DNA of 27,099 nucleotides from a virus. The DNA is taken from the IMG/VR virus record IMGVR_UViG_3300021197_000644, positions 1-27,099 of that record. One strand, given 5' to 3'. Shown here piece after piece: positions 3,437-23,492 of this stretch. How positions within the stretch are numbered: position 1 is the first letter of the stretch; each line of letters opens with the position of its first letter. A program made the position numbers and the translations under genes. The notes below the pieces were generated by a model, which saw only the letters and a program-made list of their open reading frames with translations, was not told the DNA's origin and did no database searches.

Positions 3437-6400
3437 ATGCCAACACAAACCTTTCAATATTTCGTTCCAGTAGGTTCTACTAATGTTTCTATCACTGCTG
3501 CAATGTTTGGGGCTGGTGGTGTGACTCTAGACACACTAGCATTAACACAAGCAGTATCAACGGGATACATAACTCCTACTGGTTCTCTTACCATGCTAAA
3601 GGCACTGATTGATTCTAAATCAGATGGTCAGGTTCTTGATTTATATACTGGTCATTATAGTTTGATGGGAACAACTCAAGCAGCAGCATATGGATTTAGT
3701 GCAGACTTTGGTCCAGGCGTTGGTGATTGGAATGGAATTGATGTTTATAATTCAATCACAATAAAGAATGGTACGGTTTCTTTCTATGAATTGCACCAGC
3801 CCGCTACAGGATCAGCAGCAGGCACATTCACAGTTCCAAACACTACTCAAGAAGATTTCATTCAGATGTTTGATCCTGATTCTACACAGGAAGCAATACG
3901 TCTGGCAACATATCCTCCACAATTCGGTGATCGTGTGACTACATTCAAGGTAGACGCTCGATCATTCGTCTTGGGAAGCAATGCAGCAACACCCAGCGGC
4001 ATACTTAGTGTTACTTATGATAGTGGAACATCAAGATATTATAATAGTGGTTTTACTGTCACTGGTGTTACCCTAGTAAATGATATAAAGACCATGCTTA
4101 ATAGTGTTGTCTCCGCAGAATCATCATACTCAGGAAGAACTGCGGCAGCAACTGGTATTGGTTTAGTAATGAATATTAATCCAAATGCAATACAAGTAGT
4201 TACAGTATCAGATTACAGTGAAGGACTCAGTGGAAGTGATCCCATAATAGGAATCACGTTTGCTGGTGGTACTAGTTCTTGGCCATCTAGGAGTAGTGAT
4301 TCCTTTTACATTAATGAACTAAACTTCTTCGGTAGATATTCATTCGGTACTACGGGTGCTAGTGGAACATATTACACATATGATAGTAATACAGTTACAT
4401 ACAAACCATTATCTGGCACTTGTAAGAATCTTTATCTGCCAAGAGTTTCAGATCAGGCAGGTCATGGTCTAAAGTTTCATTCAAATGGTTTAAACCTAAT
4501 AGATGGTGTAACATTTATTGGTGCAGGTAAATATGATGCGACTCACGCGGGTAATATGTTCTACGACGTTGCACGGGCGGGTTCTATCCTTAGATTGCGA
4601 AATGTAAACACTTTCATGGGTAGTGGAGTATATAATACTCAGACAAATGGAACATGGTTTGATGCAGAAGATTGTAGGTTTATTGCTCCTGCTATGAGAG
4701 CAGTCACCACTGCTACTGAAGATAGAATAACAATCAACAGATGTGAATTTATAAACGGATTATATACCAACAGTGCGATCGGTAGACTCAATTCAGATCG
4801 TGGCCCCCATGCGTTCTATAATGGTATGCCTGAGTGTAGAATTACCAATTCTGTTTTTGACTTTGACTCAAACCACGGACAAGCAATTTCTGCATACGCA
4901 GGTAGTTTTATAAACACCACAATCACTGGCAATATCTTCCGTAACCTGCCAAGACCTGTCTCTCTTCAATGGTCCACCAACTTAGAAGCAAATGTAATAA
5001 ACCAATTAGAAGATTATCCCGGATATGAATTCTCAAACAATCTAGTATATGTCGATCAGTTACCAGCCAAAGCAGCAACAGGACAGTCCGGCCTTGCTTA
5101 CAATGGACAGGCGCCGCAATCGATTGCTTTTAAACTTCAGGGTGTAATTCCAGGCGGACCAACACTTGATGGAATCTATGGCATCACAGGTGCATTTGCT
5201 GTTGATGATAATTCTACAAAATACTATATCAGATTATCCGCTGATCAACTACCCCGTGTTAAAGTACCTATGATAAAGTATGGATATCGTATCCTAGATG
5301 GTGTTGGTTACTTAATAGGCACTATTGATAGATGGGATAATGTAAATAATCAGGAAAATTATCTCACTTCTACTTTTGAAATACTAGGTAGAACAGGGCC
5401 GACTGGTTCTGAATTCAATGGAGCAATAGAAATATATCTTGGTGCTTCTGGTTCAACATCAGATACCATTACTGGCGGCATAACCTGTGGCGAAACTCTA
5501 TTAATGAGAAACATACCACCGATTACACTCAAAAATAATACAATAGTACTGAGTAGAGATCTCATAGAAAACGAGGGGTCAACAGGACACTATGTATCCA
5601 ACACGGTAAATTTAACATTCGGTGGTGGAAGTAGTGGTCTTGCTGCGGGTGTGGCAAGTGCAGGGCCGATGGAATTCAGAAACAACATAATTTACGCGAC
5701 AGGCAATCTACAAACAACAAAGCGAGTAGGTTTGTCTGGTGGATATGATATCACCACTGGTGCTACATTAGATATTGGTGCTAATGGTGTGTATAAAGGC
5801 ACTATTAGTATACAGAATGGAAGAAGTATAGTAAGTGAGAACGTATTCTTTGAATACGCTTGGAATGCTGAAGGTTTCGTGGATGGATATAGTGGTGGTG
5901 CAGATATACAGAGAAAGAACTGTCTATCAAAGTCTCTGGGATCTACTTTAGATAATGTATATAATGGCGGCCTTTTAACAAACAGGAGTGATCAATTATC
6001 AGCATTTGATAAAGTATTTACATGGAATGGCGGAACAGGTACAGTATCACCTAATGCTGGATATTCTGGTATCGGTCTGAACTGGAGTCAGTATCCAAAA
6101 TGGGAAGACATTAAAAACTTAGGATATACATTCTCGGATGTTTATAATCCTCTTGGTGTTCCCGTAACGCCTGGATCTGGTTACAATGTTGAATTTAAAA
6201 ATGATTACACTTGGGGTGTTACTTTCTTTGGACAGACAATAAATAAAGGTTATCACACACGAACAGGAACTACTCTCGGCGAGAAAAATACACAAACAGG
6301 TATTGCCGATCTCTTTGCCAGTCGATCTAATCCTACACTACACTTAGGACAACCCGACGTATATAATATGGATTCTTCTGGGTTTACTCTAGACGCATAC

Positions 6401-8380
6401 TCTTTCCATGCCGGCGGCGTGAGGAGAGTAGTGGTTCAGGTAGATCGTGGTGCTGCTTCAGAGATGACATATACGGGCAATTTGGGTGGTTACACTGGAA
6501 CTGGATACTACCAACACTACTTTGATCCCACAGGATTTAGTGCAGGAACTACACATGAAGTTCGCGTAACATCAATTCCTACCAACGGTATAACCAGAAC
6601 TAAACAAATGCTACTCTCATATGTTAGTGGAGAGAATAAGGTAACGATTGGTACAACACAAGGAATTAGTGCTGGTTGGGATGCCATACGATCTACTTGG
6701 GATCCTCGCAAGAGAAATATAATTGAACTTGGTGTGAGTGGTGATTACATTATGGGCGAAAATCCCATAACCACTGAAATATATCCTTATGGTTGGGTTG
6801 AAGTTATACCAGCAGCAGGTGTTTCTGCGTCAATAAATTTATCAAGATTCCTTTCGGGTACTACCACAGATAATCCTAATTGGGTGGAAAACAGGCCTTG
6901 GATGCATCAAATGAAGTTTAAAAACATCACATTCACAAGTATGATTCAGCAAGGTATGACACAGACTAATGCCGGTGTGAATTTAGAAGATGCTGCATTC
7001 ACAACTAGATGGTGGATAGATGGATGTACTTTACAGAGTAACTGGTATAGTGGAACTTCGGGTGCAACAGCCTACTGGGCCTTCCCCAACGAGACGCCAG
7101 TTATTGGTGTAAGTAATATGTTCCGTAACGCATATTATCAGAGATTATATTTTACTAATAGTTTTGGATCAGAAAATCAGGGTCAAATGTGTGGTGCTGT
7201 GTTAGTCAGAGGATGTACTCAGGATTTAAATTTCCAAGATTCGTACACAAATACAATGGCATTAATTGATTCATCTTCAACCAGAAAATTAACTCCGGTC
7301 GCCACCAACCTACATGCAGATCATTGGCAACTATTTAATGGATTGAGCGGACCTTTCACAAACAACGATGGTGTAACCTTCGCTCACCCAAGCGTATCAG
7401 CAACAGGTCCCGTGGCCGTTGTGATGAATTTTTTGTTGTATAACTATTATGGTTTTGATTATGCTCCAGCAGGATTTACTCTATCAATGGTACAACCTTT
7501 TGGATTTTTTGGTACGCGGAGTGAGTATTATAAGGATGTCGCTCATATTATAGGTAAATGGGGTGCGGGGGAGACTTCATCCTCGGGAGCAAACGCAAGC
7601 GCCTCAATCGCTGTAAGATATGATCATGTAATGTTGTTAGGAATTACATTAGACACTAATCGCGTGCTTGATTTTAGAGCCAATTCCGTGGGAGATATAA
7701 CCAAACAATTTGGCCCTGTTCTGATGCAGGGTGTAAGTGCGTTAAATATTACTAATGGTAATCAAAATCTTCTTAATCCTGATAATCAGCCTGGAACTAT
7801 AAATCAGTTCAAAGCAATAGAACCAATAACACCTGATGTTATATTCAGTGGTCCTGCTACAGATGATAGTTTACTGGTAACACAATACCAATGGCACATA
7901 CCAGGCGCCTCTATGGCAAATCGTTCCTTTGATAACTTCTATACCCAACATTCGAGTTCGTCCTCAACCCTTAATTGGGGTATAACTGCTCAAAACGGGC
8001 CAGGTGTAAGTGGATCTCCAATCAAGACAATCGTGGCATTAGGTGGATGTGGTGACACTTGGAACAACGATGCGAGATTTGCCTATAGTAACACCAGCAG
8101 CGGCAATGTTAGTAGTATATCATTAACCCATTTTGGTGCTGGTGAGACCGCCGAAGCAAACGCATGGATCGATTTGGCTGGAGAATCAGGATGGTGGTTC
8201 AGAATAACCACCGATGAAGGATTCATGTATAATAGTACTAAACTAAAGAAGAGAGAAGAGAATAACATAATTGATATCAGTGGGTGGAATGCTCTTCAGT
8301 TTGGTGGTATAACAATGTCGCCTGCCGGTATTACTGGTTCATCAACAGGTGTGACGTTTGAAATAAGGAGAATGACATGA
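3437..8380 (+). CDS. Giant beta-helix tail fibre or tailspike (first of two)
   Basis: A 1647-residue protein, very rich in Gly, Ser, Thr and Asn. Residues 13-32 (GSTNVSITAAMFGAGGVTLD) match the second giant protein at 18555-23492 almost exactly, so this is likely a shared attachment or assembly module. Beyond residue about 330 there are repeated strand-turn patterns such as LRNVNTF, DAEDCRFIAP, INRCEFIN, ITNSVFDF and TTITGNIFRN. These are typical of right-handed parallel beta-helix proteins, including phage tailspikes that bind or cut surface polysaccharide. A similar pattern returns around residues 1160-1280. No catalytic residues can be assigned by eye. The gene follows the Ig/cupredoxin gene and overlaps the next gene by ATGA (8377-8380). 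It probably recognises the host surface. Nearly equal length to its partner (1647 versus 1645) is striking. Confidence 0.75.
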   Translation: MPTQTFQYFVPVGSTNVSITAAMFGAGGVTLDTLALTQAVSTGYITPTGSLTMLKALIDSKSDGQVLDLYTGHYSLMGTTQAAAYGFSADFGPGVGDWNGIDVYNSITIKNGTVSFYELHQPATGSAAGTFTVPNTTQEDFIQMFDPDSTQEAIRLATYPPQFGDRVTTFKVDARSFVLGSNAATPSGILSVTYDSGTSRYYNSGFTVTGVTLVNDIKTMLNSVVSAESSYSGRTAAATGIGLVMNINPNAIQVVTVSDYSEGLSGSDPIIGITFAGGTSSWPSRSSDSFYINELNFFGRYSFGTTGASGTYYTYDSNTVTYKPLSGTCKNLYLPRVSDQAGHGLKFHSNGLNLIDGVTFIGAGKYDATHAGNMFYDVARAGSILRLRNVNTFMGSGVYNTQTNGTWFDAEDCRFIAPAMRAVTTATEDRITINRCEFINGLYTNSAIGRLNSDRGPHAFYNGMPECRITNSVFDFDSNHGQAISAYAGSFINTTITGNIFRNLPRPVSLQWSTNLEANVINQLEDYPGYEFSNNLVYVDQLPAKAATGQSGLAYNGQAPQSIAFKLQGVIPGGPTLDGIYGITGAFAVDDNSTKYYIRLSADQLPRVKVPMIKYGYRILDGVGYLIGTIDRWDNVNNQENYLTSTFEILGRTGPTGSEFNGAIEIYLGASGSTSDTITGGITCGETLLMRNIPPITLKNNTIVLSRDLIENEGSTGHYVSNTVNLTFGGGSSGLAAGVASAGPMEFRNNIIYATGNLQTTKRVGLSGGYDITTGATLDIGANGVYKGTISIQNGRSIVSENVFFEYAWNAEGFVDGYSGGADIQRKNCLSKSLGSTLDNVYNGGLLTNRSDQLSAFDKVFTWNGGTGTVSPNAGYSGIGLNWSQYPKWEDIKNLGYTFSDVYNPLGVPVTPGSGYNVEFKNDYTWGVTFFGQTINKGYHTRTGTTLGEKNTQTGIADLFASRSNPTLHLGQPDVYNMDSSGFTLDAYSFHAGGVRRVVVQVDRGAASEMTYTGNLGGYTGTGYYQHYFDPTGFSAGTTHEVRVTSIPTNGITRTKQMLLSYVSGENKVTIGTTQGISAGWDAIRSTWDPRKRNIIELGVSGDYIMGENPITTEIYPYGWVEVIPAAGVSASINLSRFLSGTTTDNPNWVENRPWMHQMKFKNITFTSMIQQGMTQTNAGVNLEDAAFTTRWWIDGCTLQSNWYSGTSGATAYWAFPNETPVIGVSNMFRNAYYQRLYFTNSFGSENQGQMCGAVLVRGCTQDLNFQDSYTNTMALIDSSSTRKLTPVATNLHADHWQLFNGLSGPFTNNDGVTFAHPSVSATGPVAVVMNFLLYNYYGFDYAPAGFTLSMVQPFGFFGTRSEYYKDVAHIIGKWGAGETSSSGANASASIAVRYDHVMLLGITLDTNRVLDFRANSVGDITKQFGPVLMQGVSALNITNGNQNLLNPDNQPGTINQFKAIEPITPDVIFSGPATDDSLLVTQYQWHIPGASMANRSFDNFYTQHSSSSSTLNWGITAQNGPGVSGSPIKTIVALGGCGDTWNNDARFAYSNTSSGNVSSISLTHFGAGETAEANAWIDLAGESGWWFRITTDEGFMYNSTKLKKREENNIIDISGWNALQFGGITMSPAGITGSSTGVTFEIRRMT
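3473..3533 (+). repeat. Left copy of an inverted repeat shared by the two giant fibre genes
   Basis: This 61-base block matches the reverse complement of 23381-23441 at about 54 of 61 positions. It includes 26 identical bases in a row (3500-3525 against 23389-23414). It encodes the shared N-terminal module of both giant proteins. Confidence 0.9.
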
Positions 8381-8547
8381 TATCATTCAAACAATATATA
8401 ATAGAGGTCTCCCCACCAGGCTTCAAAGGTACAGTCAAGGCGATGAAGAAGCATAAAGAGATTGACAATCCATATGCTTTGGCATGGTACATGAAGAACA
8501 AGGGCTATAAGTCAAACTACGATGCTGATGGAAAGAAGAAGAAATGA
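8377..8547 (+). CDS. Small basic protein with capsid-targeting-like leader
   Basis: A 56-residue gene with AAGGAG (8365-8370) six bases before its ATG. The ATG overlaps the stop of the fibre gene and its own stop overlaps the next ATG. The first ten residues, MISFKQYIIE, match in length and pattern the capsid-targeting leader of T4 internal proteins (MKTYQEFIAE), which is cut after (L/I)-x-E by the prohead protease. The remainder (GFKGTVKAMKKHKEIDNPYA, then LAWYMKNKGYKS) is lysine-rich and resembles short modules seen in marine T4-like phage proteins. If cleaved, it would leave a 46-residue basic protein that could be packed with DNA. Packaging and cleavage are inference; the gene itself is well supported by its ribosome site and overlaps. 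Confidence 0.75.
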   Translation: MISFKQYIIEVSPPGFKGTVKAMKKHKEIDNPYALAWYMKNKGYKSNYDADGKKKK

Positions 8548-9980
8548 AAGCGTTCAAACAATATCTCGGCGAGAAGATTGACCGTGATTCCTTTCGGAAA
8601 CACTGGAAAAAGGCACCCATTCTGACTACGGGTGGTGGCGACTTGAAGAAACGTGCTGCTTTCTGGAACTCATACTTCAAACACTTTGAAAACAAATATG
8701 GAGAGATTCCAAATCGCATCAAGAATGCCATGCAAATGGCAGACATGAAACCCAATCCAACTATCACATACAAGGGACGAAAGTTCTCCATGCGGACTGG
8801 CATGGATGAGATGGATCTTCTGTATCATGTGCTGAACGAAAGTGTAACAGATCTACATGAAGCCCGTTTAGTGAATGTCAAGGGTTGGGCAAATGGTCAG
8901 AAGAGAAAACTTGTCCTATGGAAACCCAAGTCTAGTCATGACATCAGACCATACCATACTCAACATCTAACAAACAATCCAAAAGACTATGGTCTGAAGG
9001 AAGAGGACTTTCTGAAAGTCTTGGCGAGATCCTATGGGTTTGATCCCGAGGACATGGAGACACTCCGTGCGTTGGATGGTATTAAGTCTGGTAAATATGA
9101 TCGTGATAAAGACATCGACAACTTCATGTACGGTCAAGGATGGGCCCGCATTGTGTTGAATGATGGAATAGGTTCTATCGAAGGACCAATCAAGGCGAAT
9201 CTACACTCCGCTGCGAAACTCATCGCAAAGAAGTATACATGGTCGCAGATTGACTTCATGGAAATCGGTGACGTTCTCAAGGATAACGCCGAATCGATCG
9301 GCGATGAGGACACATGGAAGAGTTATCTCAAGACAGGTAGAGTTCCAAAGCGAACCACCATTGGCTCTACAATGGCACGATTCCGCGAACACGTTGATCT
9401 ATCAGAGGCATACAAAGGTGACATGCTCATTGGGTGGGTGGACCCCAAGAACAAACTAATCCTGCACCCCGAGGGTGGTAGGATGGGCAGGTTCCACACT
9501 CAGGTTCTCACCAACAAGATGTCGGCAGAAGAGTTCCGCAAGTTCCAGCCAGACAGAATCGGTGTGGGTATCGCAAAGGATATGGTCAAGTTCGTGAAGA
9601 GTGGTGACATGACCGAAGCACAACTCAAGCACATCATTGACAAGTCATACGAAAACATCTATAATGCACTCAAGACAGGTAGGTCTGATGGTGACTATGA
9701 TACTGAGTTGAATCTAGAGAAAGCAGGATGGGTCAAGGTCCGCATTGATAGAAAACCCAATGGTCGTTCTTCTGTTCTTGGTGATCTCGATCGATGCCAA
9801 GCAGCAGCGAAAGTGATTGACAAGAAACTCGGTGGTTGGCAGGGTATCAACACCGATCAGTTCTGGGTCAGAGACGGCGGTACAATGGTTGCAGATGAGA
9901 AAACATGGGACACATACGTCAAGACAGGTCGAGTGCCAAAGCGAACTGATATTGGTAGAACAATGTCACAGTTTAGATAA
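8544..9980 (+). CDS. Duplicated-domain protein with capsid-targeting-like leader
   Basis: A 478-residue protein that starts by ATGA overlap with the small basic gene. The leader MKAFKQYLGE again has ten residues ending L-x-E. Further L-x-E sites occur at residues 97-99 and 104-106 (LNE, LHE), just before ARLVNVKGW, so processing could free a mature chain beginning near residue 107. The rest consists of two related halves. PYHTQHLTN (136-144) pairs with RFHTQVLTN (316-324), and TWKSYLKTGRVPKRTTIG (from 257) pairs with TWDTYVKTGRVPKRTDIG (from 454). I recognise no catalytic motif or named domain. It is likely a head-internal or core protein of the phage, with function unknown. A long stem terminator follows. 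Confidence 0.7.
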   Translation: MKAFKQYLGEKIDRDSFRKHWKKAPILTTGGGDLKKRAAFWNSYFKHFENKYGEIPNRIKNAMQMADMKPNPTITYKGRKFSMRTGMDEMDLLYHVLNESVTDLHEARLVNVKGWANGQKRKLVLWKPKSSHDIRPYHTQHLTNNPKDYGLKEEDFLKVLARSYGFDPEDMETLRALDGIKSGKYDRDKDIDNFMYGQGWARIVLNDGIGSIEGPIKANLHSAAKLIAKKYTWSQIDFMEIGDVLKDNAESIGDEDTWKSYLKTGRVPKRTTIGSTMARFREHVDLSEAYKGDMLIGWVDPKNKLILHPEGGRMGRFHTQVLTNKMSAEEFRKFQPDRIGVGIAKDMVKFVKSGDMTEAQLKHIIDKSYENIYNALKTGRSDGDYDTELNLEKAGWVKVRIDRKPNGRSSVLGDLDRCQAAAKVIDKKLGGWQGINTDQFWVRDGGTMVADEKTWDTYVKTGRVPKRTDIGRTMSQFR

Positions 9981-9982
9981 AC

Positions 9983-10078
9983 CCTCAGACTGGCACTATG
10001 GCAGGTAGAGTGTTTTTGATAGCATTCCCATACGCCTATTCTCTGCGCCCCACGGAGAGTGTCAGTCTGAGGTTTTTT
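9983..10078 (+). terminator. Long-stem terminator or structured RNA
   Basis: A 15-bp stem with one G-U pair (9983-9997 with 10058-10072) encloses about 60 bases and is followed by six Ts. Ordinary terminators have loops of 3-8 bases, so the enclosed segment probably folds further or is a small RNA. No tRNA T-loop signature (GTTCRA) is present. It ends transcription of the fibre operon. Confidence 0.65.
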
Positions 10079-10083
10079 GTTTA

Positions 10084-10091
10084 TATACATA
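10084..10091 (+). promoter_or_regulatory. Putative phage late promoter (TATACATA)
   Basis: TATACATA directly follows a terminator T run and lies 30 bases before the next start codon. The arrangement is the same as at 1632: terminator, octamer, ribosome site, gene. Confidence 0.55.
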
Positions 10092-10121
10092 CTTTACTTG
10101 GAATCAATTAGGAGTCCTATA

Positions 10122-10742
10122 ATGGAAATCACACGCAAAGTAACTGAACAAGATCTACAGGAGCGTTCCGATCACGAAGAGCGAGAACTTCATCTATATG
10201 CTGATAACCACGCTGATCTACATAGACAGCGTACTTCTATGGTTCACAAGAACCTTCGTAACAAAATGGCAAGTGGTAAGTATGACAGCAACAAGGCACA
10301 CCGTGCCTTCGTTCACGTTGCCAAGGATGCTGCGGATCGTTACGACAAGGCTCACTCCTCACCAGGCACGAAAACCTTCAGCAAGGATCACATTCATAAC
10401 GTCGCCAAGAAGATGAGAGATCAGTTTGAAGACGAAGCAAAGGATGGTCATCACGATGGCCTTCTCCACAAGAAGTATCAGAAGACTAAGAAAGAAGACG
10501 TAGAACTAGACAACGATGCCCTCGTTGAAACAGTAGAACTAACTCAATATGAAGCATTGGCAATGAGAATCATCGAAGATCGAGAAGAAAAGTATCTTGA
10601 TGATCTCATTGAAGCAGAGATCGCAGAAGAGGAAGTTGAAGTAGAACTAGACGAAGATGCCGTAATCGAGAAGATGATTGAAGCAGGATACAGTGACGAA
10701 GAAATCGCAGAAGCGATTGAAGACTTATCAAAAACTGAATAA
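10122..10742 (+). CDS. Conserved-type phage protein of unknown function, acidic C-terminus
   Basis: A 206-residue protein. The start is set by AGGAG (10110-10114), seven bases before ATG; an upstream in-frame ATG at 10077 lies inside the terminator tail and late promoter. Residues 20-120 are charged and helical (LYADNHADLHRQRTSMVHKN, GKYDSNKAHRAFVHVAKDAA). They recall a segment common in marine T4-like phage hypothetical proteins (N-x-x-LYRQ, KNL, G-x-YD-x-x-KA). From residue 123 the chain becomes strongly acidic (EAEIAEEEVEVELDEDAV), ending in a UBA-like helical pattern IEAGYSDEEIAEAIEDL. No enzyme motif is seen. A head core or scaffold role is possible, because such proteins are often acidic and helical, but this is a guess. 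Confidence 0.65.
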   Translation: MEITRKVTEQDLQERSDHEERELHLYADNHADLHRQRTSMVHKNLRNKMASGKYDSNKAHRAFVHVAKDAADRYDKAHSSPGTKTFSKDHIHNVAKKMRDQFEDEAKDGHHDGLLHKKYQKTKKEDVELDNDALVETVELTQYEALAMRIIEDREEKYLDDLIEAEIAEEEVEVELDEDAVIEKMIEAGYSDEEIAEAIEDLSKTE

Positions 10743-10775
10743 GTATACGAAAATATAATATATGTTGTGAATGCG

Positions 10776-10800
10776 GGAGGGCTTCGGCCCTCCTAATTTC
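10776..10800 (+). terminator. Terminator hairpin with UUCG tetraloop
   Basis: A GGAGGGC/GCCCTCC stem (10776-10782 with 10787-10793) closes a very stable TTCG loop. The T tract after it is poor (TAATTTC), so termination may be partial, or the hairpin may protect the 3' end. Confidence 0.7.
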
Positions 10801-10803
10801 ATA

Positions 10804-10811
10804 TATAAATA
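10804..10811 (+). promoter_or_regulatory. Phage late promoter with perfect T4 consensus (TATAAATA)
   Basis: This is a perfect TATAAATA, 19 bases before the next start codon and just after a terminator hairpin. It gives a short leader with AAGGAG at 10819-10824. Confidence 0.7.
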
Positions 10812-10830
10812 TAGTAACAAGGAGAAAGTT

Positions 10831-11481
10831 ATGCAACCAGGTCCATTTAATAAAAACATACAGAATCAAGATTTTTACAATAGTATCGCTGACATTGTAT
10901 CTAAGATCAATGTTGATATAGAGCAAGCAAAAATTGATAATAGTCCTATCTCCGAACTAAAGATGCCTGCAAAGGACGCAAAGGGTAACATCAAGAGCCG
11001 CAAGGTTCGTGGTGCATATGCTAAGGGTGCAGACAAGGCACAAGCCGCAGGTGATAAAGCAATGGATAAGGCTACCGACATAAAGTCTGATATTGACGAT
11101 ACAATCAAGAACATCGACAAGTCTCTCGACGCAGAAGACAGACGAGACGATCGGAAGCGAAAGGCTCGTAAGGAAGAAGTCGAGCATGTCGAAGAGGCAG
11201 TCACCACAACCTTGAAGTTTAAGAAGGATGCCGATGGTGCAGCAGCAGTCGGATCTGAAACAGGAAGAACTGGACTTCTACACAGTGGAAAGAAAGTCAA
11301 ACCCGGTGAGTATAAACTGACATTCAAGAACGATCGGCATATGATGAAGTTCATGGACAAGCACGCCGATCGTGTCGCAGAAGATACCGAGGTCGAAGAA
11401 GGCAAGTTAGTGGATCGTATTATGCGAAAGCGTAAGCAAATGAAAAACAAGGGGACTATCCCCGGATCGGATGGTTATTGA
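10831..11481 (+). CDS. Charged phage protein of unknown function
   Basis: A 216-residue protein with AAGGAG six bases before the ATG and a consensus late promoter upstream. Residues 45-120 are rich in Lys, Asp and Ala with heptad-like helices (KGADKAQAAGDKAMDKAT, SDIDDTIKNIDKSL), suggesting a coiled coil. The following stretch is acidic (KEEVEHVEEAV) and then passes into a more folded-looking C-terminal part (TLKFKKDADGAAAVG, MMKFMDKHADRV). I recognise no family. Position among head-core-like genes and promoter type suggest a late structural or core protein. The open frame from 10771 is rejected because it starts inside the terminator. Confidence 0.65.
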   Translation: MQPGPFNKNIQNQDFYNSIADIVSKINVDIEQAKIDNSPISELKMPAKDAKGNIKSRKVRGAYAKGADKAQAAGDKAMDKATDIKSDIDDTIKNIDKSLDAEDRRDDRKRKARKEEVEHVEEAVTTTLKFKKDADGAAAVGSETGRTGLLHSGKKVKPGEYKLTFKNDRHMMKFMDKHADRVAEDTEVEEGKLVDRIMRKRKQMKNKGTIPGSDGY

Positions 11482-11482
11482 A

Positions 11483-11677
11483 ATGGATATGAGAAACTTC
11501 TTTGGTTGGGTTCAAGGAGTCAGGTCAAATGGTGTTGGTAAAGACAACTATCAGGCTGCTCAGAATATGAATGGCGAAATGTCAGACAAAGGCTGGCGAC
11601 CTGAGGCTAAAAGCGTCGGAGATGTGTATCTAAAGATGCAAGGTTTAGATAAACCAGTTGACAAATCTACAGAATAA
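11483..11677 (+). CDS. Small protein of unknown function
   Basis: About 64 residues (MDMRNFFGWVQGVRSNGVGK, later KSVGDVYLKMQGLDKPVDKS). The start is uncertain: ATG codons at 11471, 11483 and 11489 are in frame and none has a clear ribosome site. 11483 is chosen because it begins one base after the previous stop, which suits coupled translation. The last codons overlap the sigma70-type promoter of the next gene. No domain is recognised; reading-frame context and tight spacing are the main support. Confidence 0.55.
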   Translation: MDMRNFFGWVQGVRSNGVGKDNYQAAQNMNGEMSDKGWRPEAKSVGDVYLKMQGLDKPVDKSTE

Positions 11678-11685
11678 GGTATAAT
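11658..11685 (+). promoter_or_regulatory. Consensus sigma70 promoter with predicted leaderless start
   Basis: TTGACA (11658-11663) and TATAAT (11680-11685) are both perfect, separated by 16 bases. Counting seven bases past the -10 puts +1 at 11692, the A of the next gene's ATG. It would be read by host RNA polymerase, so the gene is probably expressed early. Confidence 0.8.
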
Positions 11686-11691
11686 ATTTAC

Positions 11692-12366
11692 ATGATGTAT
11701 CAAGGTAACTTTACGCACGATATGGTTGAGGACATTGAGCCTCTTTCCACAGTGCAGGATGAAACGGGTCGGTTCTACAATACGCCACATGGTAAAATGG
11801 CAAGTGTGACGACCGTAACAGGCTGGGAAAAGCAAAAGTTCTTCGCAAAGTGGAGACGGGAAAACCCCGAAGAGTCTAAGCGTGTATGTTCACGCGGCAA
11901 CTATCTCCACGATGCGATTGAACAGTATCTTCTCAACAACGAGGTGTCAGAGGATCAACTGCCAGGTGGCAGTAAGTATCTCTTTGCACAGATGAAAGAA
12001 AGTCTAGACAAGATCAGCAATGTTCGTGCCTTGGAGGCTCCTCTATGGAGTCAGGCTACGTCTCTCGCTGGTCGTGTTGACTGTGTTGCTGATTATGAAG
12101 GTGAACTATCGATTATCGACTTCAAGGGTTCGACTCGCAAGAAGAGAATCCGAGACATCGACAACTACTTCATGCAGGCTACTGCTTATGCAATCGCATG
12201 GCAGGAGCGAGTGGAACAGCCAGTGAATCAGATTGTGATTCTCATTGCGTCGGAGGAGGGAACCAATCAGGTTTTCAAATCCACTCCACAACTACATACA
12301 AAGCCTCTTCTAGAGGCAATCAAGAAGTATAATCAACACTTCGCTCAACAGGGTCAACTATGGTAA
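11692..12366 (+). CDS. PD-(D/E)XK nuclease of MGME1/RecB type
   Basis: A 224-residue protein. Motifs appear in family order: RGNYLHDAIEQYL (His73), GRVD with Asp130, IIDFKGS with Asp143 and Lys145, and QATAYA with Gln162. This is the RecB-like PD-(D/E)XK exonuclease arrangement, closest by eye to the MGME1-like phage exonucleases that trim single-stranded ends. A role in phage recombination or DNA processing is therefore likely. The ATG lies at the predicted transcription start of a consensus sigma70 promoter, so the message may be leaderless; a second ATG follows directly at 11695. The stop overlaps the next gene's ATG (12360-12366), implying coupled expression with the ligase-like protein. 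Confidence 0.8.
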   Translation: MMYQGNFTHDMVEDIEPLSTVQDETGRFYNTPHGKMASVTTVTGWEKQKFFAKWRRENPEESKRVCSRGNYLHDAIEQYLLNNEVSEDQLPGGSKYLFAQMKESLDKISNVRALEAPLWSQATSLAGRVDCVADYEGELSIIDFKGSTRKKRIRDIDNYFMQATAYAIAWQERVEQPVNQIVILIASEEGTNQVFKSTPQLHTKPLLEAIKKYNQHFAQQGQLW

Positions 12367-13568
12367 ACTTCACTTCCTTTCTCAATGAGGGTAAGAACAC
12401 ACATCTTACTCATGCAGCCGATCTAGTCTTTGAGGGTTATGCGAGGACTAACTTGGCTGTTAACTTCATTGAAAGCGTGGCTACCATGCTGGAAGGAAAC
12501 TCCAAGTCTAAACTAAACGTCACACGCAAGTGGGACGGCGCACCCGCAGTGTTTGTGGGGATCAACCCAGAGAACGGCAAGTTCTTCGTGGGAACCAAAA
12601 GTGTCTTCAACAAAGGCACACCCAAGATCAACTACACGAACGCAGATATCACCCGCAACCACGGACACGCTCCTGGCCTCGTAGAGAAACTCAAGGTTGC
12701 TCTCAAGGATCTCAAGAGCGTCGTGGTGGGTGGTATCTATCAGGGTGATATGCTCTTCATCAAGAGTGATCTAGAGACGAAAGAGATCAACGGAGAGTCG
12801 TTCATTGCGTTCACACCAAACACGATCACCTATGCTATTCCATCTGACTCTGATATGGCAAAGAAGATTACCAAGTCTTCTATGGGTATTGCGTTTCATA
12901 CCAAATACACTGGTAAAGATATGGCGAGCATGAAGTCATCCTTCAACGTAACCAAGAAGAGTTTCAAGAAGAGCAGCAAGGTTCTAGTCGAGGATGCCAC
13001 ATACTTTGATCAAAGTGGTAGAGTCACATTCACTGCTGGTGAGATGAAGAGTGTAACAAAAGAGGTAGCAAAGGCCCGTCAACTCACAGACTCCAACAAG
13101 GCTGGACTGAACTGGCTCGCGGGCGAGAACAAGATCGTCGCATTCCTCAACATCTACGCGAACTCTACGGTAAAGGCTGGTGATCTCACCTTGCGTTACA
13201 CAGACTTTGTTGCGATGATCAAGGAGCGATACGAAGCAGACGCAGCGAAACTCAAGCGAGAAGCCAATCAGAAGAACAAGATAGCACAGGGTAAGCAACT
13301 GATCTCAATCATCCAACGCAACAAGAAAAGTATGGATGGAATATTCAAACTACACTCAGTGCTAAACAAGGCAACTCTACTCTTGATTAATAAACTAGAG
13401 GGTATCAAGAGTTATAAAACATTCCTGAAACGTGCTGATGGCTTTGAAGTCACTGGCGAAGAAGGATTTGTAGCGAGTGATCATTTAGGTAATGTAATTA
13501 AACTAGTCGATCGTCTTCAGTTCTCTAGAGCAAACATGACGATTGACAAAAACTGGATAAAGGGTTGA
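12360..13568 (+). CDS. Nucleotidyltransferase/ligase-like phage protein with capsid-targeting-like leader
   Basis: A 402-residue protein. Residues 57-60 are KWDG in VTRKWDGAPAVF, the K-x-(D/N)-G lysine motif of RNA/DNA ligases and capping enzymes. Further candidate motifs follow in order: YQGDMLF (127-133), FTPNTITYAIP (151-161), EEGFVASD (367-374, like motif IV) and VIKLVDR (379-385, like motif V with Lys381). I recall a cyanophage family of unknown function (DUF6267) with the same KWDGAP and GKFFVGTKSVFNK text. Ligase activity is inference from motifs. The first ten residues, MVNFTSFLNE, fit a T4 capsid-targeting leader cut after L-x-E, so the protein may be packed in the head and ejected, as T4 Alt is. 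It overlaps the upstream nuclease gene by seven bases. Confidence 0.75.
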   Translation: MVNFTSFLNEGKNTHLTHAADLVFEGYARTNLAVNFIESVATMLEGNSKSKLNVTRKWDGAPAVFVGINPENGKFFVGTKSVFNKGTPKINYTNADITRNHGHAPGLVEKLKVALKDLKSVVVGGIYQGDMLFIKSDLETKEINGESFIAFTPNTITYAIPSDSDMAKKITKSSMGIAFHTKYTGKDMASMKSSFNVTKKSFKKSSKVLVEDATYFDQSGRVTFTAGEMKSVTKEVAKARQLTDSNKAGLNWLAGENKIVAFLNIYANSTVKAGDLTLRYTDFVAMIKERYEADAAKLKREANQKNKIAQGKQLISIIQRNKKSMDGIFKLHSVLNKATLLLINKLEGIKSYKTFLKRADGFEVTGEEGFVASDHLGNVIKLVDRLQFSRANMTIDKNWIKG

Positions 13569-14156: not shown

Positions 14157-14813
14157 ATGGCAAAAGCAGCATTCACATTTGGACGTATGAACCCACCCCA
14201 CATCGGTCATGAACTGGTAGTGGAGGCTGTTCGTAAAGCAGGAGGAAGAAATTCATTCCTCTTCACTTCTCATTCAAATGATACAAAGAAAAATCCTCTA
14301 AACTACCGAAAAAAGATCACATACCTTCGTAAGATGTTTGGTAAGAAAATTAAGATTGTAGATGACGCCGGCATTCGTGACGTTCATGCCGCACTTGAAT
14401 ACCTTAGCGATAAGGGATTCACAGAACTACGCATGGTAGTAGGATCTGATCAGGTAGAAGGATTCAAAAAGGCCATTCTTCCATATGTCGATGACTATGG
14501 TATTACATTCTTTGAGGTTGTGTCTGCTGGAACAAGAGATCCTGATGGTGAAGGTGTCTCTGGTATGTCAGCATCTAAACTAAGGAAGATCGTGGCTGCT
14601 GGCGACTTCGACGCCTTTCAAGTAGGAATGCCTAGGACAATATTACCAAAAGATCAAAAGAAACTATACAATGATCTTCGCGTTGGTATGGGTCTAAACG
14701 AAGATACAGAAACCTATTGGTTTGATCACGATGAATTTGTTCTGTTTGAAAAGATGTATAATTTATCTGAAGATAAAGACATACTAAAACACGTTACAGA
14801 TTTTATCGATTGA
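14157..14813 (+). CDS. HxGH-type nucleotidylyltransferase (NMN adenylyltransferase/cytidylyltransferase-like)
   Basis: A 218-residue protein. The N-terminus FTFGRMNPPHIGHELVVEAV has the HxGH nucleotide-binding motif (His15-Ile-Gly-His18), RMVVGSDQVEGF follows at 92-103, and GMSASKLRKI (136-145) matches the C-terminal S-x-S/T-x-x-R motif of the family. These enzymes join a nucleotide to NMN, phosphopantetheine, glycerol phosphate or similar with release of pyrophosphate. T4-like phages often encode such a protein, in some cases as part of NAD salvage. The substrate cannot be read from sequence alone. The last 45 residues (EDTETYWFDHDEFVLFEKMY) extend past the catalytic domain. The gene has its own late-type promoter and a shared bidirectional terminator. 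Confidence 0.8.
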   Translation: MAKAAFTFGRMNPPHIGHELVVEAVRKAGGRNSFLFTSHSNDTKKNPLNYRKKITYLRKMFGKKIKIVDDAGIRDVHAALEYLSDKGFTELRMVVGSDQVEGFKKAILPYVDDYGITFFEVVSAGTRDPDGEGVSGMSASKLRKIVAAGDFDAFQVGMPRTILPKDQKKLYNDLRVGMGLNEDTETYWFDHDEFVLFEKMYNLSEDKDILKHVTDFID

Positions 14814-15283: not shown

Positions 15284-15925
15284 ATGAGATACAAAGAACT
15301 GCTTAGCCTTTTAGAGAGTGAATACGACGTAGAAGTCGGGGGTGCCTCTGGCGTCCTAAGAACTGCACAGAGTGACTTCGGTACATTCCGTGTTGAGAAT
15401 GCTGCCATGATTACAAGAATAAATGCCTTTATTCACAACTATCTAAAGGAAGCATGTCTCGATCCCAAGCAAACCGTTTTTGGTCTTCGACAGAAGTTAA
15501 ACCAAGTTGGTCTTGACTTTGAGTTTTCAAATAAAAACAATGTCACTGAAGGTGCCATGGATCTCAAGTTGACTCGCTTCGGTGGTATCTTCGGCAAGAG
15601 TGACACAACTCCATTCGACGAGTTCGATAACGAAGATGGTCTTGAGAAGTCAATCGGTCATGGACTCACTCTTAAACTAGAAACTACCATCAACGAGAGA
15701 GGTCTATACAAGATGGAAGGTAAGGTTGTTCCCACCATCTCCGAGACTTCAGAAGAGGTTGAGGTAGAAGAAGCAATAGTTGGTCGGACCAAGCCAAAGG
15801 ACGCAAAACACTCTACCATGCGTAAAGACTACGATGGTGATGGTAAGGTAGAGTCTGGAACTGACGAGTGGAAGGGTTCTAGGGATAAGGCCATCAAGAA
15901 GGCAATGGCTGCAAGAAAAAGGTGA
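15284..15925 (+). CDS. Conserved-type T4-like phage protein with EF-hand-like loop
   Basis: A 213-residue protein with AAGGA eight bases before the ATG. The text SDFGTFRVENAAMITRINAF, then LDPKQTVFGLRQKLNQVGLD and LTRFGGIFGKSDTTPFDEF resembles a family conserved among marine T4-like phages, usually of unknown function. The leader MRYKELLSLLE could be a slightly longer capsid-targeting sequence ending L-L-E. Near the end, DYDGDGKVESGTDEW (182-196) has Asp at positions 1, 3 and 5 and Gly at 6 of a calcium-binding EF-hand loop, though Thr replaces the usual Glu at position 12. This tail is followed by a basic helix (KGSRDKAIKKAMAARKR). A head-core or neck role is possible; I cannot assign one. 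Confidence 0.7.
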   Translation: MRYKELLSLLESEYDVEVGGASGVLRTAQSDFGTFRVENAAMITRINAFIHNYLKEACLDPKQTVFGLRQKLNQVGLDFEFSNKNNVTEGAMDLKLTRFGGIFGKSDTTPFDEFDNEDGLEKSIGHGLTLKLETTINERGLYKMEGKVVPTISETSEEVEVEEAIVGRTKPKDAKHSTMRKDYDGDGKVESGTDEWKGSRDKAIKKAMAARKR

Positions 15926-18554: not shown

Positions 18555-21500
18555 TTAGTTCTCTTCTATCTTATACTTTGGAGTGGCACCAAATCTAGCA
18601 TATAAATCGGTCCAGTTATTATCCCATGTAGTACCAGTGGTTTCGTTGCTGCCTCTAACAAAAACAGTGTCTTGGTTCCATTGTTCCCAACCACCAGTCC
18701 AACCATATGTGTATGTTACACCTGCGGTAGATACTATTTCCAATGTTACTCCGGGATTTGCTGTTTGGAAGTTATTCTTATCCAATGTAGTACCAAATGT
18801 AAGTTGAAGTCCCCTATTTGATGCGGTGAGTGGTTGCAATGATATCTTAGACATATTTGCACCAGTAATACCAGTGGCAATTTGACTAGTTCTTGGTGCG
18901 AATGTATTCACGAATGAACCACTTGAATCTGTTCTATAAAAGGAATTGTCAGTATCAGCAGCAAAAATTCCATACTCGGGCGCGGGATACACATACACAT
19001 TAGACCAAGTTATTCCTGCACCATATCCTTCTGTTGTTACACCATTGAGGTAGGAACTAATATCATTCGTATTAATAACATTAACATAACTATGAACCTG
19101 ATCTAGATCAGCGACTTGGTATGCAAAGGATACAGTATCGGTAGTTATTCCGTTAACGTAGAAGTGATCGAATGATGCACCATCATATAAGTTTTCATTT
19201 CTATCGTACTGTACGTTTAGTGCTGATGGGCTTTGCGGTATTCCACCCAATGATATGTTATTCAAACCAATATGATGCCAATATCCAGCAAACTGAATCC
19301 AGTTATTCGTAGTATAACTAGTTACCCTTGTAACGCTGTCTCTTATGAATATGTAATTGTTGTCTGTGTATGTCGCAAAGCCATTTTTAGGTGCGGATCG
19401 GTCAAACAATATGGTTTGTAATTGAGTATCGCCTGTTCCTCCACCTGAATTTTCAACTAGATGGCCACCATAGTAGAAGTTCTGGTGTTGAAATGTATCA
19501 TGACTTTCAGGATTACCCCACCATTGATGCAGATCAACGTGTGTATATGATGAACCATAAGTATCTGCTGCATGTCGGTATGGTTTAACATTTGTTGCGT
19601 AGTTGTTTATTGAACACAAAGCACCAGTCGCTATATCGACTCTTAGTCCAGACATACGACAATCACGCATTAAAGAACACCATGAGTGGCCGGGTGTACT
19701 AAGATTAACAAAGTTACAATCAACATATCCTCGCCACGGTTGATTATCCGCAGACCCACCGTCCCAGTTCTGTTCTATTCTCGTTCGTTTTAAAGGCGCC
19801 CCAGCAGTACCATCATCATTCAATGACTGAGCATCACCACCTACAAGAGTTGTATAACTTTCAAGTGTAAATCCTCTTATGTTACCTGTTGTAACTCCTA
19901 AACTCTGGTTAGAGTTATATGCAATATTTAATGTTGCACCCGCGACGTATGTACCACTGACGCCTGTGCCTTGCTTTTGTCCGTATACATTAAACTGACC
20001 AAAACTAACACCAGCACTAGTACCAGTTATCCATTCGTTTATCGAATTACCTGTTCCATAAACATCACCTATCTGTATTCCAAGATAACCAAAGTTTGTT
20101 GATGTAGTTGGTGCAGAATCACCAGTAGGTCCACCATTTCCTTGATAGACGTATTCACCAGCAACAATACTGGCAATATCAGCACTTGACCCTAGAATAG
20201 TCGCACGAATGCCGGGAGGTCTTTGTATGTTTGTGTAGTCTGTATCATTATACCTACTCTCAAAGGTACAACCATCAAAGAGTAAATTAGCGTATTTTTC
20301 TTGGTAGTAGTTACCACCAATATAACTATCAGAACTAGAACCAATAAGACAATTCTTATATCGAATGTAGGTTAGGTTAGTTCTAACATCATTCGTCATG
20401 CCTTCCATACCACTCCAATATACTGAATTTCCTCCAGTGGGCGCCACTGTGATCCAAGATCTTCTTGAAGTATTTTCTGTAGTTGATTTCGCAAGACCCT
20501 GAAGATTCCATACATTATTCAAGGTGCAATTGTAGTTGACATGAATCTCGTCGAGTGTAAGTCCAGAAAGTGTATACCCACCATCAAGTGCGGCCGCGAA
20601 CTCAGCATCATTTGCTACTGTTACAATATTGAGAGAAGGACGTTGAAGAATCTTAATTGTTTGTGTGTCTGTAGCATTTCTTCTGAGTGTAAATGTATTC
20701 ATCGAATCAGGAACTAATTCAATTTCCTTTCTATACACAAAGGAAGAGGTAGTTCCCTTATCAGGGTACGTTAGAAACGTCTTAGTACCAACATGGGCAG
20801 TGACGCCATTGTGTATTATGGTAGGAGCCGTAGTTAAGTATTCTGCTGGATTAACATTCTCTCCCACATAGTCAATAATATATGTGGATGCCGTAGTTAC
20901 CATACCAGAAGGAATGGCAAAGCGAGCCACATCGATATCTGCAACCGAAGCCCCAGGCCCGATTATAGAATCAATCAAACCACCAGTCGCGGCCGTTAAT
21001 GACCAACTATCACTGGTTGGATTAAACGATGCAGAAATTCCACTAGCACTGAGAGTTAGTCCTGTACCACTCCAATTGACAGGCATACCAGTTGTAGATC
21101 CTGTTCCTTCATAATTTCTTGTAGTATCGATTGCGTCTACAAGATACTCTTGACTGAGTGTGAGTCCTGCATAGTCAATAAGTTGAAGACCGTTATAGTC
21201 ACCACTTGCAAATACTCTTAGTTTGATTGCTTCTTTATATCCAAGAGGAGTATCGTTTAATTCGTATGCACCTATCTCCCGACTCGCAGGCCTTATTGTG
21301 CCACCGATACTATATGGTAGTCCCTTGGTTGTAGATTTTCCTATAGAGGAATAACCCACACCATATCTGTTGATGTTTCCACCTGCACCTTGATCACCGA
21401 CATTATCAAAGTAGTTACTTGAGAGTTGAGTTGATCCATGCGTCGTCGCTCCTGGCATAAGTTGCCAAGCACTATACGCAGAATTCCTCACATCTACTAG

Positions 21501-23492
21501 ACCAGTAAATGTTACTCCTCCAACATCAGTGCCTATCTGTTTGAACACAGATGAGTCCGCAATAAATCTTATTGGTTGGATGAAGTCCGAGGCTCCGTTT
21601 CTGAAACTAAAAGATAGAGTAGTTGGGAAACTACAATACTTGAGAGCCATCCTCCTCGGCCCATTTTTTATTTGTGCCAGAAGACCCATTCTAGGTCTGG
21701 TATATTGCTCAAAGGAACAATTACTAAACACTACGTTATCAATTCCAAGAGTAGGGCCGCCCTGAAAGAGCATCGGTTGCTCATCTTGGTATATACGATA
21801 GTCTTGTACAAGAATGTTATCCATCGTGAGTCCTGTGATTTCCGTGGCTCCTCCGACTTGGAAACCATCTGGGTGTGCCCAGATTGCCATAAACAATTCA
21901 GTACCTACTGGTAGTTCATTGGTATAATCTATGTCCCTGAATACTATCTTCTTATCAGCAGTAGCAGAAGTTCCCCATAACTGTGTTTGCTTGTATTGAG
22001 AATATAGACGTTTGCGGTTGACTACACTATGTTCCTCACCCGACTTCCAGTATCCACAAAGGAAGTCAGATCGTTGCATATACCGATCACTAGGATCTAC
22101 ACCGCCTGCTGTTGATAAGTTTGTTGGCCAACTGAATGTCCTTCCGGCACTGGCACCCGACACTACATTAATAATCGTCTCACCACTTGCACCCAAGGTA
22201 GAACCCGTAACTACAAGGTAATCCTCTGTTGATGTGGAAGTTTGAAAGAGAGCCTTATCTCCGCCAATAGATTCCATCTTATTGATGGTCATTCCTGTTT
22301 CAAGAACAGAGAGTCCTGCACTTGATCCGTTTTGAAGAAACGACCACGACAAATACATGGGATCGAATGAACAATTGGCCGTTACGTTCATATACTCACA
22401 AGCACCACCAGCAACCATAGAATTCAAGTGAGTATTGTGAACTTCGTGCCTTGCTACTCTATTGCCATTAGTGGAGTAGTCATAGAAACTAGTTTGGGTA
22501 AGTTCATGAGACTTAATACCATATGTTCTTCCCCCATCTTCTTCATTCCACCAACTATCAGTGATAGTGCAATTGTTATATCCAGAATACTCTCCGTTGA
22601 TGGTGATAGTCGGCTGTGAGTTCTTTAGATCAAGGGTCACGCCCTCCCATACAACATGCTCAATTCGTAATTCAGGTCTGTTGTAATTGCTCCACGTTCC
22701 AGCACTATATGTACCTTCTCTACTCTGTGTTATACCCCCATCAACCCTGTATGGTGAAATCACAACATCACTTGTATTACCTGCTTTGGCCTGAACCTCA
22801 TTCCAAAAACCATTCGTAGTACCAAGCCCACCTTGTTTGAAGGTATAATTACCTCCACGAAGTTTCAATATTCTGTTGTCTTCATATGTACCACCACTCG
22901 AATAACCAATAAGACCAGAGATATCTGCATTCTCATCAAGATCCTCGGGGCCTTTCTCTAGCACAACAGGAACAACACATCTTATGTCTTTATTAATGAT
23001 ACGACTATTCCCATTAACGGGAACTAGTTTTGCGTAGACTGTTGTGGTTCCATTTGAAGTCACGCCGGCGGGGAAGAACATGTCAAAGTTATAACCCTGA
23101 ACACCAACAGCATTTTTCGATATAGTAGATGAAGATGCACTTGAACCATGACACCAGACTTCAACATGATCTATACCTGCGGGATCAACCACATCTGCCG
23201 CCACCATGAAGTTTTGTGTGGTGCCTGGTGAATACAGACGAGAGAGCATATGCAATCGTCCAACCGCTGTATCACCATAGTCTATGCCGTGAGTCGAATT
23301 AGATGGTGCAGTATTTGCCAGAGCAAAGTTTGGAGTGACGATCGGTGCTGTAATACCAACCGAAGCCGCAGTCGTCTCTATGTCTAGTGTCACACCACCA
23401 GCCCCAAACATTGCCGCAGTGATTGAAACACTGGTTGAGCCAGGAGCGATATAAAACTGATAACTTGCAGTCGGGTGATAGAGAATAGGCAT
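18555..23492 (-). CDS. Giant beta-helix tail fibre or tailspike (second of two)
   Basis: A 1645-residue protein, the same size as the fibre at 3437 but on the opposite strand. Residues about 18-37 (GSTSVSITAAMFGAGGVTLD) match that protein at 19 of 20 positions, and the DNA there is also nearly identical; downstream the two differ. The chain is rich in Gly, Ser, Thr and Asn with beta-helix-like strand runs (MTINKMESIGG, ITGLTMDNILVQDY, IDNVVFSNCSFEQY, ALKYCSFPTTL, YANLLFDGCTFES). It is probably a second host-recognition fibre or spike using the same attachment module. The C-terminus (TYTYGWTGGWEQWN, then WTDLYARFGATPKYK) may be a receptor or trimer tip. The start has only a weak GGGG ribosome site 26 bases after the upstream gene's stop. 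Confidence 0.75.
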   Translation of the reverse strand: MPILYHPTASYQFYIAPGSTSVSITAAMFGAGGVTLDIETTAASVGITAPIVTPNFALANTAPSNSTHGIDYGDTAVGRLHMLSRLYSPGTTQNFMVAADVVDPAGIDHVEVWCHGSSASSSTISKNAVGVQGYNFDMFFPAGVTSNGTTTVYAKLVPVNGNSRIINKDIRCVVPVVLEKGPEDLDENADISGLIGYSSGGTYEDNRILKLRGGNYTFKQGGLGTTNGFWNEVQAKAGNTSDVVISPYRVDGGITQSREGTYSAGTWSNYNRPELRIEHVVWEGVTLDLKNSQPTITINGEYSGYNNCTITDSWWNEEDGGRTYGIKSHELTQTSFYDYSTNGNRVARHEVHNTHLNSMVAGGACEYMNVTANCSFDPMYLSWSFLQNGSSAGLSVLETGMTINKMESIGGDKALFQTSTSTEDYLVVTGSTLGASGETIINVVSGASAGRTFSWPTNLSTAGGVDPSDRYMQRSDFLCGYWKSGEEHSVVNRKRLYSQYKQTQLWGTSATADKKIVFRDIDYTNELPVGTELFMAIWAHPDGFQVGGATEITGLTMDNILVQDYRIYQDEQPMLFQGGPTLGIDNVVFSNCSFEQYTRPRMGLLAQIKNGPRRMALKYCSFPTTLSFSFRNGASDFIQPIRFIADSSVFKQIGTDVGGVTFTGLVDVRNSAYSAWQLMPGATTHGSTQLSSNYFDNVGDQGAGGNINRYGVGYSSIGKSTTKGLPYSIGGTIRPASREIGAYELNDTPLGYKEAIKLRVFASGDYNGLQLIDYAGLTLSQEYLVDAIDTTRNYEGTGSTTGMPVNWSGTGLTLSASGISASFNPTSDSWSLTAATGGLIDSIIGPGASVADIDVARFAIPSGMVTTASTYIIDYVGENVNPAEYLTTAPTIIHNGVTAHVGTKTFLTYPDKGTTSSFVYRKEIELVPDSMNTFTLRRNATDTQTIKILQRPSLNIVTVANDAEFAAALDGGYTLSGLTLDEIHVNYNCTLNNVWNLQGLAKSTTENTSRRSWITVAPTGGNSVYWSGMEGMTNDVRTNLTYIRYKNCLIGSSSDSYIGGNYYQEKYANLLFDGCTFESRYNDTDYTNIQRPPGIRATILGSSADIASIVAGEYVYQGNGGPTGDSAPTTSTNFGYLGIQIGDVYGTGNSINEWITGTSAGVSFGQFNVYGQKQGTGVSGTYVAGATLNIAYNSNQSLGVTTGNIRGFTLESYTTLVGGDAQSLNDDGTAGAPLKRTRIEQNWDGGSADNQPWRGYVDCNFVNLSTPGHSWCSLMRDCRMSGLRVDIATGALCSINNYATNVKPYRHAADTYGSSYTHVDLHQWWGNPESHDTFQHQNFYYGGHLVENSGGGTGDTQLQTILFDRSAPKNGFATYTDNNYIFIRDSVTRVTSYTTNNWIQFAGYWHHIGLNNISLGGIPQSPSALNVQYDRNENLYDGASFDHFYVNGITTDTVSFAYQVADLDQVHSYVNVINTNDISSYLNGVTTEGYGAGITWSNVYVYPAPEYGIFAADTDNSFYRTDSSGSFVNTFAPRTSQIATGITGANMSKISLQPLTASNRGLQLTFGTTLDKNNFQTANPGVTLEIVSTAGVTYTYGWTGGWEQWNQDTVFVRGSNETTGTTWDNNWTDLYARFGATPKYKIEEN
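23381..23441 (-). repeat. Right copy of the inverted repeat shared by the giant fibre genes
   Basis: Its reverse complement matches 3473-3533 at about 54 of 61 bases, with a 26-base perfect core at 23389-23414. The two copies are in opposite orientation about 19.9 kb apart. Confidence 0.9.

Follow-up and report, generated by a model that had tools for sequence, protein, structure and literature searches.

The capsid-targeting system itself is already known from phage T4, in which the leader of protein IPIII acts in targeting mainly through residues 4 and 7 and in cleavage through residues 8 and 10, and Asp at position 10 removes cleavage and keeps targeting (PMC9026906). Similar ten-residue N-termini were analyzed here in three predicted proteins of a marine T4-like phage, the virus record IMGVR_UViG_3300021197_000644, of which a fragment of 27,099 bases with approximately 24 credible genes was studied (the window, i.e. 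the whole stretch of DNA that was analyzed). With a probability of about 0.82, the N-termini of the products of the genes starting at positions 8377, 8544 and 12360 are considered to be T4-type capsid-targeting sequences that are cut after Glu10, the cargo being delivered together with the DNA.

The three N-termini reported in a preliminary description of this stretch were all present exactly as given there: MISFKQYIIE↓VSPPG in the open reading frame (ORF) 8377-8547 (56 residues; the arrow marks the predicted cut), MKAFKQYLGE↓KIDRD in ORF 8544-9980 (478 residues) and MVNFTSFLNE↓GKNTH in ORF 12360-13568 (402 residues). Its comparison with T4 was also correct, as ipII and ipIII do begin MKTYQEFIAE, and all three window leaders match the T4 functional residues at positions 4, 7, 8 and 10. 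The start codons are credible, since an AAGGAG ribosome site is located upstream of 8377, the starts at 8377 and 8544 each overlap the preceding stop as ATGA, and the start at 12360 overlaps the stop of ORF 11692-12366. The three proteins have no Pfam or PHROG family in common. An identical 12-mer, TTCAAACAATAT (FKQY), was found in leaders 1 and 2 (8386-8397 and 8553-8564), suggesting that the leader was copied at the DNA level.

As a positive control, the leader pattern recovered ipII, ipIII and Alt from T4 as well as gp24, which gp21 cleaves, and also gp2 and gp61.1. In the retrieved loci and the reference genomes taken together, the pattern followed 56 of 15,699 internal Met codons (0.36%) and leader ORFs were spread over many unrelated clusters; in the window it was present in 3 of the approximately 24 credible genes (P ~9e-5 with respect to the internal Met rate). 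Looser patterns (any LxE with Glu at approximately positions 9-13) were not significantly enriched, either where genes start or among virion proteins; the specificity of the pattern comes only from the aromatic positions. That three short N-termini are alike by chance is hardly credible: the leaders are only ten residues long and the pattern is loose and was partly fixed after the finding had been seen, which makes conservation a better test than the low P value, but for 12360 conservation in distant homologues excludes chance.

Homologues retain the leader in near and in very distant relatives. The product of 12360 belongs to DUF6267 (Pfam PF19782, E = 1.7e-100), and 168 entries of this family were examined, drawn from loci and reference genomes and including some duplicates: 80 had the leader, 85 had none and 3 were cut or unclear. 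The four key positions were 96-100% conserved in 48 non-redundant DUF6267 leaders (Glu in 48/48, L/I at E-2 in 47/48, F/Y at E-3 in 47/48, and F/Y at E-6 in 46/48), while the remaining positions were variable. Moreover, the leaderless clade starts M-(A/S)-KNTHLEHLED where leader-bearing relatives read ...E↓(A/S)KNTHLEHLED, that is, one residue past the predicted cleavage Glu, and the leader can be regarded as a discrete module because this clade starts right at the predicted cut. On the DUF6267 tree, whose root is weakly supported, the leader trait changes once at minimum, and repeated gain or loss was not shown. It is quite unlikely that the N-termini are instead ordinary amphipathic helices of the folded proteins, or a motif for some other partner, with no connection to the head: the model of 12360 does have a short helix spanning residues 4-9, but the leader has low confidence in that model beside a well-folded body, is common to proteins of unrelated families, is enriched in virion-detected proteins (see below), and is missing as a unit from a whole DUF6267 clade in which the next residues are unchanged.

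Sequences of the gp21 family (PF03420) were found in 11 of the 11 searched records of at least 64 kb (T4, six isolated relatives and four metagenomic records), seven of which contain a leader-bearing DUF6267. The gp21-like protease that the preliminary description had proposed to look for was present in all DUF6267-bearing relatives of at least 64 kb that were searched. A leader that only docks the protein into the prohead and is never cleaved, leaving the mature N-termini intact, is unlikely. Targeting and cleavage are indeed separated by Asp10 in T4 (PMC9026906), but the processing residues are kept here (Glu without exception and L/I two residues before it in 47/48), homologues without a leader start where the cut is predicted, and gp21 is present in the long relatives.

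Published virion proteomes of related phages also bear on targeting to the head. For S-CREM2 (genome OR473000), 52 of 219 proteins had been detected in virions by mass spectrometry (MS; PMC10665884, Table 3). Leaders were present in the detected gp6 (S-adenosylmethionine (SAM) hydrolase, MKDFDSFLEE), gp13, gp14 (kinase, MKRFDAFLTE), gp136 and gp154 (cytidylyltransferase, MKNFSSFLTE), and a sixth leader-bearing protein, of 55 residues, was undetected by MS, i.e. 5/52 detected vs. 1/167 undetected proteins (Fisher P = 0.003, for a definition of leader tightened to the T4 positions after a first look at S-CREM2). With the regular expression fixed beforehand, the proportions were 4/52 and 2/167 (P = 0.029). 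Pooling S-CREM2 and S-SZBM1 gave P = 0.002. In S-SZBM1 the virion-detected cytidylyltransferase starts MRFRQFIIE, and a leaderless DUF6267 adjoining the cytidylyltransferase gene was undetected in virions. The virion NMNAT of S-SCSM1 starts MKSFLQFLKE. A kinase has been reported in S-CRM01 virions, likely the product of the kinase gene of this phage that starts MISFDQFLSE. In addition, the virion-detected Cas9-like gp12 of S-CREM2 (locus L099, 7704-10313, minus strand) has a leader-like LRFASFMAE↓A near its N-terminus, the end of which lies 25 residues downstream of the annotated start; this start may be misannotated.

Several points weigh against capsid targeting and cleavage of the window proteins. 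Virion support comes from related phages only, DUF6267 itself is not reported in virions, and the mature N-termini given here are predictions. The S-CREM2 authors regarded such virion enzymes as possible contaminants (PMC10665884), and S-SZBM1 alone, with a shallow proteome of 30 proteins in which leader proteins 191 and 192 were undetected, gave P = 0.36. The pattern also produces false positives, e.g. UvsX. No gp21 was found in the 27 kb window or in its 51 kb nearest longer relative, both of them fragments, nor was any S78 protease found as an alternative in gp21-less records, and some phage records of 100-160 kb bearing the SPPGF domain of 8377 had neither an S77 nor an S78 protease found. 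On balance, the core of the preliminary description, namely that the leaders are of the T4 type and that a gp21-like protease cuts them behind Glu, is well supported for three proteins by the match at four T4 positions, by conservation across strongly diverged sequences, by leaderless homologues starting at the predicted cut, by gp21 in all sufficiently long DUF6267-bearing relatives, and by leader enrichment among virion-detected proteins of related phages, while its fourth candidate, at 15284, did not stand.

Table 1. Coordinates of the predicted leaders, their cargos and two neighboring genes in the window.
Feature	Position	Strand	Remarks
Leader 1, MISFKQYIIE	8377..8406	+	Predicted cleavage after Glu10; F4, Y7, I8 and E10 fit T4 capsid-targeting positions
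Basic peptide of 46 residues, predicted mature form (VSPPGF...KSNYDADGKKKK domain)	8407..8544	+	Same domain inside many other phage proteins
Leader 2, MKAFKQYLGE	8544..8573	+	Predicted cleavage after Glu10; F4, Y7, L8, E10
Segment between leader 2 and repeat 1 (residues 11-106)	8574..8861	+	Ends LHE↓A; missing in L163
Repeat 1 (residues 107-288)	8862..9407	+	Ends MARFREHVDLSE↓A
Repeat 2 (residues 289-478)	9408..9977	+	Homologue of repeat 1 (E 2e-18, 31% identical)
Leader 3, MVNFTSFLNE	12360..12389	+	Predicted cleavage after Glu10; F4, F7, L8, E10
Mature DUF6267 protein, probable RNA/DNA-ligase-like nucleotidyltransferase	12390..13565	+	KWDG residues 57-60, EGFV 368-371, Lys381; PF19782; AlphaFold model
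Cytidylyltransferase/NMNAT-like protein without leader	14157..14810	+	Homologues in other phages have leader
Fourth candidate of the preliminary description, leader unsupported	15284..15922	+	Glu and Ser at aromatic positions

Regarding the cargos (Table 1), that of 12360 is probably an RNA/DNA-ligase-like nucleotidyltransferase, as judged from conserved motifs and a predicted structure. Residues K57, D59 and G60 (motif I, KxDG), E368, G369 and V371 (motif IV, EGxV) and K381 (motif V Lys) were invariant in 83 DUF6267 sequences. The KWDG, EGFV and Lys381 of 12360 succeed one another as motifs I, IV and V do in ligases, with KxDG, EGxV and the conserved Lys arranged likewise in T4 Rnl1, Rnl2 and the Naegleria RNA ligase. 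For the AlphaFold model based on a deeper alignment (predicted local distance difference test, pLDDT, 83.9; predicted template modeling score, pTM, 0.74), members of the ligase superfamily were the best structural neighbors, RNA and DNA ligases accounting for 49 of the 50 structural alignments listed (best Z 7.3 over 179 residues). An earlier, shallower model gave partial ligase matches only, and the deeper alignment improved the fit. Foldseek returned nothing under E 0.1 (best ligase E 0.77), so the significance of single hits is low, and a DUF6267 sequence search of the PDB gave no meaningful match. With respect to the ligase superfamily, 12360 differs in a large helical insert (residues 226-347) and in its weak overall fold score (the best Z given above). 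In T4, tRNA that host defence has cleaved is repaired by RNA ligase 1; it may be speculated that a DUF6267 ligase entering with the DNA could act earlier than this enzyme, and that the cargo might serve to repair or modify nucleic acid of the host or the phage as infection begins.

In the tandem-repeat protein 8544, in which residues 107-281 are homologous to residues 289-478, both repeats begin directly after L-x-Glu↓Ala, and the MARFREHVDLSE↓A preceding repeat 2 resembles the N-terminus MKRFNEYVNLHE↓A of a shorter ORF in locus L002. A homologue in locus L163, 94% identical over the common part, has the leader variant MKAFSKYLSE directly on repeat 1, the segment of approximately 95 residues between leader and repeat 1 being missing. 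From this arrangement we infer that 8544 arose by fusion of units that each had a leader, and that the protein may well be cut at its LxE↓A domain borders into several pieces. Homologues of 8544 were fewer and closer than those of 12360, and a tblastn search for isolated-phage relatives of 8544 and 8377 yielded none convincing. As for 8377, its homologues retain the leader pattern (MRSFKQYLNE, MISFKKYITE, MKSFIQYLNE). Where the SPPGF domain occurs in larger proteins, Glu stands directly before it in 49 of 49 distinct contexts, and (I/L/V/M/F)-x-Glu precedes it in 88% of them vs. a background of 2.2%, which would fit release by a prohead protease, although this Glu may simply belong to the domain.

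The fourth leader proposed in the preliminary description, MRYKELLSLLE at 15284, did not match the pattern, as Glu and Ser occupy the aromatic positions E-6 and E-3. This N-terminus was conserved among close relatives only, and a distant relative (L260) starts MKTFKNFAED, with targeting residues present and cleavage residues not. The homologues of the leaderless protein at 14157-14810 in S-CREM2, S-SZBM1, S-SCSM1 and loci L274/L275 have a leader. PHROG 455 covers DUF6267 and the cytidylyltransferase domain, and since it spans both, the two are fused in some phages. A strict alternation, in which the leader would lie either on DUF6267 or on its cytidylyltransferase neighbor, was rejected, as 12 entries have it on both.

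Leaders were also found in a P-loop, adenylate-kinase-like protein (16 loci) and in two HAD-like clusters (L041 12579; L011 10628; L076 2774), with enzyme names read from motifs. Two close longer relatives of the window phage contain one further protein with a leader, MKSFTDYLNE, at its start and a DUF6321 domain at its end. In T4, gp61.1 (NC_000866, 18966-19130, minus strand) is a hypothetical protein of 54 residues whose start, MKTFKEFIKE, fits the capsid-targeting pattern. Elsewhere in the window, ORF 257-1294 encodes a predicted secreted, porin-like protein with a signal-peptide-like N-terminus and no Pfam or PHROG match, and the ORFs 3437-8380 and 18555-23492 (minus strand), on opposite strands and of approximately 1,645 residues each, have similar N-termini (GSTxVSITAAMFGAGGVTLD).

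The packaging, docking, cleavage and delivery of the window proteins can be inferred from T4 as follows. The aromatic residues 4 and 7 of the leader would dock the protein in the prohead scaffold core during head assembly; a gp21-type S77 prohead protease would then cleave the chain behind Glu10 of the (I/L)-x-Glu motif and so release the mature protein within the head, from which it would pass into the host together with the DNA. The cargo would be swappable, being a small basic peptide in 8377, a tandem-repeat protein in 8544 and a ligase-like DUF6267 in 12360. More tentatively, and with somewhat greater weight on the side of doubt, marine T4-like phages might pre-load enzymes that handle nucleotides and RNA (ligase-like DUF6267, NMNAT-like cytidylyltransferase, SAM hydrolase, kinases, and adenylate-kinase-like and HAD-like proteins) through a common swappable leader, so that these act on the host during the first minutes, before phage gene expression, e.g. 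in RNA repair or in countering defences that deplete nicotinamide adenine dinucleotide (NAD) or use SAM.

What is new is the reach of the system over marine T4-like phage enzymes, the agreement with published virion proteomes, and the two forms of one family, with and without the leader; neither DUF6267 by name, nor leaders of cyanophages or their spread over marine phage enzymes, were found in the literature searched, most subscription journals being outside its coverage. If capsid targeting is right, the ten-residue pattern allows one to predict, for marine phages that are very abundant, which of their unknown proteins are borne in the particle, along with the mature N-termini, and it supplies a mechanism for the presence of the kinases, cytidylyltransferases and SAM hydrolases that recur in cyanophage virion proteomes, which the authors could not tell from contamination. 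DUF6267 would gain a probable activity as well as a place in which it acts, its leaderless clade being a natural experiment, and the results suggest a general way for these phages to bring enzymes into infected cells.

Compared with T4 IPI-IPIII and Alt, the window leaders are likewise N-terminal, of approximately ten residues, with hydrophobic or aromatic residues at 4 and 7, I/L at 8 and Glu at 10, and they likewise precede several unrelated cargos, with a gp21-type protease in relatives; the cargos differ, since in the window they are a small basic domain, a protein made of tandem repeats and a probable enzyme resembling ligases. The virion-associated enzymes of S-CREM2, S-SZBM1, S-SCSM1 and S-CRM01 bear the same type of leader as the window proteins, although the leader and packaging route are not described in the papers on them. 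In SPN3US and phiKZ, N-terminal parts of head proteins are likewise removed by a related prohead protease, but several of those propeptides exceed 100 residues (PMC5694885), whereas the window leaders have approximately 10.

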